Below, one piece after another: positions 11,268-42,147 of a stretch of 58,377 bases of DNA. Position numbers and translations under genes: made by a program. This stretch comes from an uncultured Alphaproteobacteria bacterium (GTDB taxonomy: Bacteria > Pseudomonadota > Alphaproteobacteria > RF32 > CAG-239): the NCBI GenBank assembly GCA_944391515.1, contig CALXTW010000012.1, positions 1 to 58,377 on the forward strand. Reading direction: 5' to 3'. The first letter of the stretch is position 1, and every line of letters starts with the position of its first letter. The notes beneath the pieces are model-generated. The model made no database searches. It had not been told where the DNA came from and saw only the letters and a list, made by a program, of their open reading frames with translations.

Positions 11268-11342
11268 GCGGGCGTAGCTCAGGGGTAGAGCGCAACCTTG
11301 CCAAGGTTGATGTCGAGGGTTCGAATCCCTTCACCCGCTCCA
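11268..11342 (+). tRNA. tRNA-Gly (GCC)
   Basis: The cloverleaf folds with anticodon loop TTGCCAA and an encoded 3' CCA. The T-arm is GAGGG-TTCGAAT-CCCTT. The acceptor stem has one C-A mismatch at positions 6-67 (5' strand GCGGGCG, 3' strand CACCCGC), whereas the second tRNA-Gly at 58178 has a perfect pair there. It is followed by a terminator and by tail-regenerating repeats. Confidence 0.95.
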
Positions 11343-11605
11343 TTTTCAAACCTCCCATTGTGGAGGTTTTGTTGTATCTGGGTGAAGGGATTGCATCCCT
11401 TTCTGGCTTGTAAGTTCAAGTCTAAAGACTTTCACTAACTGCGCTGCGGTCACTTGATTTGTAAACGCTTTTTTCGGCGGCGCTGTTTCTTGCCTCAAAG
11501 CTAACAAATCTGCGCCTGTCGTCAAAATAACCTCCACCGGAGGTTATTTTCTTCTCCAGCCCGCTCCAATTTTCAAACCTCCCATTGTGGAGGGGAGTTG
11601 TAAAC
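11343..11605 (+). repeat. tRNA-Gly tail-regenerating repeat (one full unit plus partial)
   Basis: After the tRNA comes a terminator hairpin (AACCTCC / GGAGGTT, 11347-11367), then a core of about 90 bp shared with the tRNA-Arg repeats (about 11440-11527: GCTGCGGTCACTTGATTTGT, TCTTGCCTCAAAGCTAAC, AAATCTGCGCCTGTCGTCA). A 12-bp perfect hairpin follows (AAAATAACCTCC / GGAGGTTATTTT, 11525-11551) and then a new copy of the tRNA end CCGCTCCA at 11561-11568. The unit is 226 bp. The terminator sequence restarts at 11569 but is cut short where the 107-bp repeats begin. Confidence 0.85.
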
Positions 11606-11965
11606 GCGGCGCGTTTAATCGCAAGACTTAGCTGTTTGGGTTCGGTTGCCCTGACGTCGCGATGCTTGCTTCTTGCTGTGCTTAATCTTTGAGGCTTATA
11701 GATGTCTTTAATGCGGCGCGTTTAATCGCAAGACTTAGCTGTTTGGGTTCGGTTGCCCTGACGTCGCGATGCTTGCTTCTTGCTGTGCTTAATCTTTGAG
11801 GCTTATAGATGTCTTTAATGCGGCGCGTTTAATCGCAAGACTTAGCTGTTTGGGTTCGGTTGCCCTGACGTCGCGATGCTTGCTTCTTGCTGTGCTTAAT
11901 CTTTGAGGCTTATGGGTGTCTTTAATGTGGCGCGTTTAATCGCAGACTTAGCTGTGTATTCGTGC
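11606..11965. repeat. 107-bp tandem repeat, 3.3 copies
   Basis: The sequence starting GCGGCGCGTTTAATCGCAAG recurs at 11606, 11713, 11820 and (partial, GTGG variant) 11927, exactly 107 bp apart. Copies 1-3 are almost identical and end in ATGTCTTTAAT. Each contains a T-arm-like GGGTTCGG and a CG-rich ACGTCGCGATGC stretch. I see no open frame of note. It directly follows the tRNA-Gly repeat and precedes the glycosyltransferase gene's 3' end. Confidence 0.9.
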
Positions 11966-14431: not shown

Positions 14432-14521
14432 GGAGAGATGGCAGAGTGGTCGAATGCGGTTGACTCGAAATCAATTGTACTCTTACGGGTACCGGGAGTT
14501 CGAATCTCCCTCTCTCCGCCA
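14432..14521 (+). tRNA. tRNA-Ser (CGA)
   Basis: A class II tRNA with a long variable arm. The anticodon loop is CTCGAAA, the acceptor stem GGAGAGA / TCTCTCC is perfect, and 3' CCA is encoded. The T-arm is GGGAG-TTCGAAT-CTCCC. A terminator follows at once and then tail-regenerating repeats. Confidence 0.95.
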
Positions 14522-14812
14522 TAAACAAAGCCCTGCCGAAGTGCGGGGCTTTGTTTTTGTTGAGGAGAGATGAGGTTCGAACTCCCGAAAAAGGGAGTTT
14601 GATAAGGAGGAGCAGGCGAGACGAAGTATCGCCGCACTTGCGACGACGCAGTGCGTTAAGAAAACTTGAAAAGTTTTTAGCCATCTCCCTCTCTCCGCCA
14701 TAAACAAAGCCCTGCCAAAGTGCGGGACTTTTTTTGTTGAGGAGAGATGAGGTTCGAACTCCCGAAAAAGGGAGTTTGATAAGGAGGAGCAGGCGAGACG
14801 AAAGGGGCTTAT
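14522..14812 (+). repeat. tRNA-Ser tail-regenerating repeats (1.6 units of 179 bp)
   Basis: The first unit (14522-14700) contains the tRNA terminator hairpin (AACAAAGCCCTGC / GTGCGGGGCTTTGTT, 14523-14558), a hairpin AACTCCC / GGGAGTT, an imperfect CGCACTTGCG / CGCAGTGCG stem, and AAAACTT / AAGTTTT just before a new copy of the tRNA 3' end (ATCTCCCTCTCTCCGCCA, ending at 14700). The second copy starts identically at 14701 and stops after about 110 bp. The layout matches the Gly and Arg arrays although most of the sequence differs. Antisense frames here are the familiar spurious tRNA-Ser reverse ORFs. Confidence 0.85.
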
Positions 14813-32206: not shown

Positions 32207-32628
32207 TGGACGACTAGTACAGAAATTGCGGGTCGAAAGTGTCCTCACGTACTAAAAGTGTACGCTGCGGTACTTTCGCCTTTATTTCTTACTATTCGTC
32301 TCATTCTCCAAGTTTTTTGTAAAAACTCGTATAATGGTCATCTAATACAGAATTGGCGATTGGTAAAAACTCGTCTAGTTGGTAACTAGAGTAATTTTAC
32401 GCGGTCTCGAAAAATTCACGTACGTTTTATGTACGCTAAAATTTTTCTTGCCGCTAGAAATCACTCTATATTATACACGCTATCCAAGCTTTTTGTAAAA
32501 AAACTCGTCTAGCAGGTAACTAGAGTAATTTTACGCGGTCTCGAAAAATTCACGTACGTTTTATGTACGCTAAAATTTTTCTTGCCGCTAGAAATCACTC
32601 TATTTATGCACGCTATCCGAGTTTTTTG
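32192..32628. repeat. Tandem large palindromic repeats between rlmN and a lipoprotein gene
   Basis: The gap and both gene ends hold three near-complete units of about 130 bp (32192-32319, 32363-32494, 32495-32628) and a 44-bp fragment at 32320-32362. Each unit is an imperfect palindrome starting with AAAAACTyG and ending with CAAGTTTTTTG-like sequence. In the last two units pairs include AGAGT/ACTCT, GCGG/CCGC, GAAAAATT/AATTTTTC and CGTAC/GTACG. Unit 1 keeps the same shape with different arms (CGAAAGT/ACTTTCG). The final T-runs on both strands make each a possible bidirectional terminator. Confidence 0.85.
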
Positions 32629-41323: not shown

Positions 41324-41400
41324 GTACCCGTAGCTCAGTTGGATAGAGTGTTGGCCTCCGACGCCAAAGGTCGTGGGTTCGAATCCCCCCGGGTACGCCA
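41324..41400 (+). tRNA. tRNA-Arg (CCG)
   Basis: Anticodon loop CTCCGAC, perfect acceptor stem GTACCCG / CGGGTAC, discriminator G and encoded CCA. T-arm GTGGG-TTCGAAT-CCCCC. It is followed by terminator AAGAGGTC / GGCCTCTT and a long array of tail-regenerating repeats. Confidence 0.95.
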
Positions 41401-42147
41401 TAAACAAAAGAGGTCGCTCGTCGGCCTCTTTTTTTATGCTTCCGGTGGGTCGAACCCAGGGTTCGTTCTGGCTCGTAAGCTCATAATATTCGCTAACTCG
41501 CTGCGGTCACTTGATTTGTAACACTTTTTCGGCAGCGATATCTCTTGCCTCAAAGTTAACAAATCTGCGCCTGTCGTCAGAAAATTCTTTGAGTGAGAAT
41601 TTTCTTTCCTTCAGCCCCTCGGGTACGCCATAAAATAAAAGAGGTCGCTTGTCGGCCTCTTTTTATTTATGCTTCCGGTGGGTCGAACCCAGGGTTCGTT
41701 CTGGCTCGTAAGCTCATAATATTAGCTAACTCGCTGCGGTCACTTGATTTGTAACACTTTTTCGGCAGCGATATCTCTTGCCTCAAAGCTAACAAATCTG
41801 CGCCTGTCGTCAGAAAATTATTTGAGTGAGAATTTTCTTTCCTCCAGCCCCTCGGGTACGCCATAAATAAAAGAGGTCGCTCGTCGGCCTCTTTTGTTTT
41901 ATGCTTCCGGTGGGTCGAACCCAGGGTTCGTTCTGGCTCGTAAGCTCATAATATTCGCTAACTCGCTGCGGTCACTTGATTTGTAACACTTTTTCGGCAG
42001 CGATATCTCTTGCCTCAAAGCTAACAAATCTGCGCCTGTCGTCAGAAAATTCTTTGAGTGAGAATTTTCTTTCCTCCAGCCCCTCGGGTACGCCATAAAT
42101 AAAAGAGGTCGCTTGTCGGCCTCTTTTTATTTATGCTTCCGGTGGGC
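41401..42147 (+). repeat. tRNA-Arg tail-regenerating tandem array, 3.2 units of 231-232 bp
   Basis: Units end at 41632, 41863 and 42095, each with a new copy of the tRNA 3' end (CTCGGGTACGCCA) and then TAAA-plus-terminator; a fourth unit stops after the terminator and TGCTTCCGGTGGG at about 42147. Each unit holds: the terminator hairpin; TCGAACCC/GGGTTCG palindrome; a core shared with the tRNA-Gly unit (CGCTGCGGTCACTTGATTTG, TCTTGCCTCAAAG, TAACAAATCTGCGCCTGTCG); and a hairpin AGAAAATTCT / AGAATTTTCT just before the new tRNA end. Units differ at only a few positions. Antisense frames of about 65 codons run through units 2 and 3; unit 1 has a TGA in the same frame. Confidence 0.92.

Follow-up and report, generated by a model that had tools for sequence, protein, structure and literature searches.

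The 226-bp unit that follows tRNA-Gly(GCC) in this uncultured alphaproteobacterium is built around D, a noncoding element of ~155 bp (150 to 160 bp) with ends TCTGG/CCAGC, which we read, with moderate confidence, as a nonautonomous mobile element that targets hairpins and whose unit duplicates the end of the tRNA gene. Several components of this reading are shown. The folded single-strand form of D is conserved, with three variable hairpins, conserved linkers, and discrete ends; D sits in or beside target hairpin arms; at tRNA loci, D is enclosed between directly repeated copies of the tRNA end and its flank; and, on comparative evidence, D has moved between sites.

The unit at tRNA-Gly(GCC) and its shared core

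The window (the whole 58,377-nucleotide stretch that was analyzed) is contig C12 of a genome of 1.67 Mb in 44 contigs. The order within the Gly unit is terminator, inverted piece of the Gly T arm and acceptor, core, and CCCGCTCCA again, with a second terminator beyond. The features of this locus are as follows.

11268-11342, + strand: tRNA-Gly(GCC), intact, adjoining the unit (ARAGORN and Rfam RF00005)
11334-11376, + strand: direct-repeat copy 1, comprising the tRNA tail CCCGCTCCA, the terminator, and TTGTA (read from the sequence)
11343-11568, + strand: unit 3′ of tRNA-Gly(GCC), exactly 226 bp, ending in the regenerated CCCGCTCCA, with the second terminator copy next
11380-11401, + strand: inverted copy of the tRNA-Gly T-arm/acceptor region (GGGTGAAGGGATTGCATCCCTT), a small hairpin (13-nt antisense match to the tRNA 3′ end)
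11402-11561, + strand: D element, TCTGG...CCAGCC (150.8-bit match to covariance model R1; alignment A1)
11410-11439, + strand: hp1 of this D element, a variable hairpin with a conserved GTAA..TAAC frame
11456-11510, + strand: P2 stem, GATTTGT ... ACAAATC, with a variable apex (covariation, helices 1 to 4)
11524-11550, + strand: hp2, an A/T-rich hairpin, AAAATAACCTCC/GGAGGTTATTTT (covariation, helix 6, with variation at both bases of each of its 12 pairs)
11560-11602, + strand: direct-repeat copy 2, comprising the regenerated tail CCCGCTCCA (11560-11568), the second terminator, and TTGTA (read from the sequence)

The direct repeat at 11334-11376 and 11560-11602 is single in the orthologous Gly locus of the sister genome G006. 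That locus is an empty site, in which the tail and one terminator are followed by TTGTAAACG, and the same TTGTAAACG flank follows the second terminator, and hence direct-repeat copy 2, in the window. Inverted copies of the tRNA end like that of the Gly unit are present in many other units.

After the Gly unit, a 107-bp tandem repeat occupies 11603-11944 in three copies. Related sequence is found after tRNA-Arg(tct) on contig C5 and at the empty Gly site of G006, and this repeat is likely another small repeat family. Elsewhere in the window, at 32365-32603, there are two direct repeats of 105 nt each, 98% identical and spaced by 134.

The core of the Gly unit recurs in three units of ~232 bp that follow tRNA-Arg(CCG).

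41324-41400, + strand: tRNA-Arg(CCG) (ARAGORN and Rfam RF00005)
41401-41630, + strand: Arg unit 1, with its D element at 41467-41616
41631-41863, + strand: Arg unit 2, with its D element at 41700-41849
41864-42095, + strand: Arg unit 3, with its D element at 41932-42081

The Gly core matches these units with E values of 1e-27 to 1e-29, at 83% over ~120 bp in two of them and 90% over ~90 bp in the third. The string CTTGCCTCAAAGNTAACAAATCTGCGCCTGTCGTCA occurs four times in the window with no mismatches, and none is expected from shuffles. Chance is excluded as the source of the shared core. A sequence-only reading of the window had claimed a core of about 90 bp shared between the Gly and Arg units, ends specific to each tRNA, and one family adapted to two tRNA genes. 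The sharing held for all three Arg units, and so did the specificity of the ends, to which the inverted tRNA 3′ copy at the left end of the Gly unit (11380-11401) can be added. The shared part is corrected to ~155 bp, and two tRNA genes proved too narrow, as at least seven tRNA genes in this genome have a D-family copy next to them.

Among named sequences, the core most closely matches those of metagenome-assembled genomes (MAGs) of uncultured Alphaproteobacteria and “Azospirillum sp.” Names of this kind suggest that the family probably comes from the gut, an inference and no more than that. The exact core pattern had no match among viral contigs, so no phage vehicle was found.

Distribution of D and of tail-regenerating units

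The copies of D in the window's genome are found in both orientations. A covariance model of D, built from 21 copies, also has matches there on the 3′ side of the tRNA genes for Asp, Val(gac), Leu(cag), Arg(tct), and Thr(tgt), all in reverse. In other genomes, D lies beside Gly(gcc), Gly(ccc), Arg(ccg), Arg(cct), Arg(acg), His, and Leu(caa), and also beside Asp, Glu, Lys, Met, Val, and Pro, in the same orientation as the tRNA or the opposite one. The model matched 121 of 128 genomes and all 16 genera in the family sample, and 118 of 125 genomes in the order-level sample, every one of them in the same family. Outside the family, D was found in 1 of ~140 alphaproteobacterial genomes (G186), where it lies between tandem tRNA T-arm/tail repeats (L282), a single case at a contig end. 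G080, G036, G037, and G073 are rich in D, and G012, G025, G053, G062, G076, and G100 are free of it. The large-sample searches used stricter filters, and their counts are best read as lower bounds. Most of the genomes are fragmented MAGs, whose assembly may have merged tandem copies, and a number of their contigs stop beside a tRNA.

The best copy of D lies 43 to 264 bp from a tRNA in 26 of 30 genomes, on the 3′ side in 20 and on the 5′ side in 6. Five of the six 5′-side copies are at Pro(ggg), where the duplication covers the tRNA 5′ head, outward from its anticodon loop (L188). In the other four genomes, the best copy is at a contig edge (two cases), has a 6.2-kb island between it and its tRNA (one case), or belongs to G080. 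At two loci (L185 and L173) no tRNA was called, yet tRNA tail sequence or a contig end is present. One core match (L187) was set aside as chance, and that region reads as coding.

G080 carries at least 23 copies scattered at a distance from tRNAs, and almost every one is within a small palindrome of the type CCCTCCC..GGGAGGG (CCCTCCC..ACCT, D, CTAAGTCTTTAGGGAGGG, and variants), and it is possible that they multiplied along with these host palindromes. Finding the core mainly outside tRNA loci would have refuted a tRNA-specific element. Such a finding fails in most genomes and is met in this one, where the copies are in other palindromes; D is therefore better called hairpin targeting, usually of tRNA arms, than strictly tRNA specific. 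Its usual targets are copies of the T arm on the 3′ side, with anticodon-arm sequence 5′ of tRNA-Pro used in some cases and small palindromes in G080. The rule itself is inferred from inspection and from a flank test only modestly above shuffles, in which complementarity around D was 6.3 versus 5.0 at tRNA loci and 6.8 versus 5.1 in G080.

The presence and copy number of units differ between orthologous tRNAs of sister genomes. At Arg(ccg), for example, G000 has three D units, G003 has an E-type and then an A-type unit, and G006 has only a remnant. In a tree of D, the tRNA-Val copy of G080 nests within the dispersed G080 clade and the Arg-ccg copy of G028 nests among Gly copies, although the tree rests on short sequences without support values and is an indication only. 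Gly and Pro clades are also present; D tends to keep the same tRNA across genomes, and its transposition is therefore not frequent. Overall, the mobility suggested by the sequence-only reading is supported by >10 tRNA types, 16 genera, both orientations, and presence or absence at orthologous tRNAs.

Two other sequences were seen at such loci. In G003, an ordinary 6.2-kb integrative element with an integrase of ~607 aa lies in the tRNA-Gly T arm, upstream of an intact D unit (L139, C12:88235-96500). In G000, a gene for an IS200-like Y1 transposase separates the terminator of tRNA-His from a D unit that is truncated (L035, C4:35585-35950).

Regeneration of the tRNA tail extends beyond D. The analysis covered the 3′ flank of each of the 38 tRNA genes identified in the window's genome, of which 37 had enough flank for the count. 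A tail copy, defined as a match of ≥15/17 bases located 100 to 320 bp downstream, follows 14 of these 37; with tails swapped between tRNAs (100 trials), the mean was 0.04 and the maximum was 1. Among control loci from other families of the class, none of 48 tRNAs had a tail copy even at ≥14/17. From six genomes of the genus, 52 tail-regenerating units were extracted. In the typical unit, a terminator comes first, then an antisense T arm accompanied by a short piece of T arm in sense; the body, 80 to 150 bp long, is followed by a hairpin and by the tail of the tRNA that the unit adjoins, beginning in the T loop. The anatomy is the same across body families A, B, D, and E, each of which is common to different tRNAs. 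Only D was modeled; A, B, and E were recognized by eye. The window contains a unit of a body family other than D.

14522-14700, + strand: 179-bp tail-regenerating unit after tRNA-Ser(CGA) (14432-14521), with a 17/17 tail match

After tRNA-Trp (L017), a second segment of ~450 bp closes with a perfect tail of that tRNA (17/17) and contains a short open reading frame with the pattern CPEC..CPFC, which makes it resemble a gene-bearing cassette.

Folded structure, proposed mechanism, and rival explanations

Across 69 distinct copies of D, 96.3% of pair cells are standard, compared with 74.7% in shuffles and 43 to 51% in slid controls, and 29 of the 31 modeled pairs have changes on both sides. This alignment was fitted to the model and is hence biased toward it; in the independent MAFFT alignment A1, the corresponding figure is 22 of 31. 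G-T pairs outnumber A-C pairs 48 to 15, which indicates that the modeled strand is the one that folds and is under selection. The hp1 hairpin, which is outside the model, has a mean folding energy of −6.9 kcal/mol versus −3.4 kcal/mol in shuffles, and 42% of copies individually reach P ≤ 0.05. Selection on a single strand could fit either RNA or single-stranded DNA. A product of tRNA read-through is unlikely to be the folding strand because in many copies this strand of D is antisense to the tRNA. The alternative offered by the sequence-only reading, a conserved RNA with interchangeable ends, is thus supported as a conserved folded strand with target-specific ends, the “interchangeable ends” being recast as duplicated target sequence.

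In the mechanism that we propose, an unidentified trans-acting enzyme or process would recognize the folded D strand, as single-stranded DNA or an RNA copy. Insertion, or template switching associated with it, would duplicate the tRNA end and terminator and create the inverted arm copy, and the duplicated end would leave the host tRNA intact. The tRNA-specific ends would then be target derived and outside D proper, since insertion is proposed to duplicate the tRNA end. Tandem arrays may have arisen by later unequal crossing-over, and D may flip by recombination between inverted tail copies. One point against this reading is that ordinary DDE transposons duplicate a short target of fixed length, which D does not. 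No enzyme for D was found in the six genomes of the genus, where reverse transcriptase (RT) and Y1 transposase domains each occur in only three. Both were rejected as drivers because they do not track D; G001 has 20 copies of D without Y1, and G003 has D without RT. An integron attC site was also considered for GTAA..CTAAC and was rejected on reading the sequence, in which the RYYYAAC/GTTRRRY boxes are absent.

The rival that survives best, although we consider it unlikely, is a functional structured RNA, like the RNA proposed for Escherichia coli rtT, that is kept by selection at tRNA loci and copied by local duplication with occasional gene conversion between tRNAs through shared T-arm sequence. 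The strong covariation, the one-strand excess of G-T over A-C, the presence of D in ~94% of genomes of the family, and the same anatomy in E. coli rttR all favor it. However, D is found in both orientations relative to the tRNA, is missing at orthologous tRNAs of sister genomes, is dispersed away from tRNAs in G080, and lies behind the tRNA's own terminator.

Enzyme-free template switching is less likely still, and we give it little credence. Replication would stall at the terminator and T-arm hairpins, fold back to copy the inverted tail, and return to the tail, with the core copied from another locus by microhomology. The order of tail, terminator, and inverted tail is that expected from fold-back synthesis at a terminator hairpin, and the right junction falls at a C run common to D and the T arm. 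Nonetheless, this leaves unexplained both why there is a conserved, covarying, discrete element of ~155 bp with fixed ends and how that element reached at least 23 copies in G080. That the units are scars of ordinary integrase islands with the tRNA T loop as the attachment site is next to ruled out: normal islands do use the same tRNAs, as does the 6.2-kb element at tRNA-Gly of G003, but the junctions of that island are tail repeats only, without an inverted arm or D, the unit beyond it is intact, and the structure of D is under selection, unlike a scar.

Relation to known systems

The closest parallel to the units is the tyrT/tyrV locus of E. coli K-12 (rttR/RtT RNA, Rfam RF00391, with tpr), in which three tandem 178-bp units follow tRNA-Tyr. 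Each ends in the 19-nt tRNA tail AATCCTTCCCCCACCACCA (at 178, 356, and 534), and ahead of the body each has the tail in antisense, GGGGAAGGAT, and part of the T arm in sense, AAGGTTCGA, the same anatomy as here. Tandem units that each close with the tRNA tail are thus common to E. coli RtT and to this genus. The body of the Arg(acg) unit aligns with that of RtT with a z score of 5.4, the best of all units tried, which is suggestive only. The RF00391 covariance model found no match at E < 5 in 11 loci of the genus (mostly of body families other than D) and matched only E. coli itself (L231; 133 to 138 bits). D was not filed as RtT because this model misses the units tested. Furthermore, RtT is known only from loci of the tyrT/tyrV kind, whereas here there are many tRNAs, several body families, and, in G080, dispersed copies. 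Knowledge of the E. coli repeats goes back to about 1980, and it has been proposed that rtT RNA plays a part in the stringent response. Searches of the open-access literature for tyrT, rtT, and tRNA tail repeats found no relevant paper.

REP, BIME, and REPIN sequences and CGTC-tagged palindromic repeats, including the Rickettsia RPE (PMC3733652), are small, noncoding, and hairpin rich, like D. The CGTC repeats are found in alphaproteobacteria and have no dedicated transposase (PMC3733652), and most, though not all, copies of D have CGTC just before hp2. However, REPs are 20 to 40 bp with a terminal tetranucleotide (GTAG/CGTC), a criterion that D, at ~155 bp with three hairpins, does not meet. 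Unlike REPs, D is tied to tRNA arms and the tRNA end is regenerated, and the likeness does not rest on sequence relation.

Integrative elements such as islands and prophages also insert at the T loop or anticodon loop of tRNAs, displacing and restoring the tRNA end (Islander; PMC4383910). Their criterion of a displaced tRNA end as the far boundary is met by the units, as the tail copies show. In contrast, D units of ~160 to 260 bp have no room for an integrase (those of the genus are elsewhere or in separate islands), and they carry an inverted arm copy and inversion relative to the tRNA. Prokaryotic miniature inverted-repeat transposable elements (MITEs; reviewed in PMC10969869) are likewise short, nonautonomous, and structured. 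They have imperfect terminal inverted repeats, to which the TCTGG/CCAGC ends of D, of only 4 to 5 bp, may correspond. The fixed short target-site duplication of MITEs is not met, since D duplicates tail and terminator (~43 bp at tRNA-Gly, with other tRNAs differing). D also differs from MITEs in lacking any cognate transposase that could be found and in a structure constrained on one strand.

A bolder reading, which we put forward only as a possibility, is that D and its sister bodies make up a single class of mobile folded-strand elements whose points of entry are hairpin loops, that tRNA arms serve as safe havens, since with its tail duplicated the tRNA still works, and that E. coli tyrT/rttR is a stranded member. 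If this is true, the long-standing tyrT/rttR puzzle would be one of mobile DNA and not of a tRNA-linked regulator. Apart from this reading, the findings make of the tRNA tail repeats, a one-locus curiosity in E. coli, a widespread and testable phenomenon with presence/absence polymorphism. They also point to an enzyme or process, as yet unidentified, that acts on DNA or RNA hairpins, and they show how short noncoding DNA is able to enter essential tRNA loci and still leave them intact.
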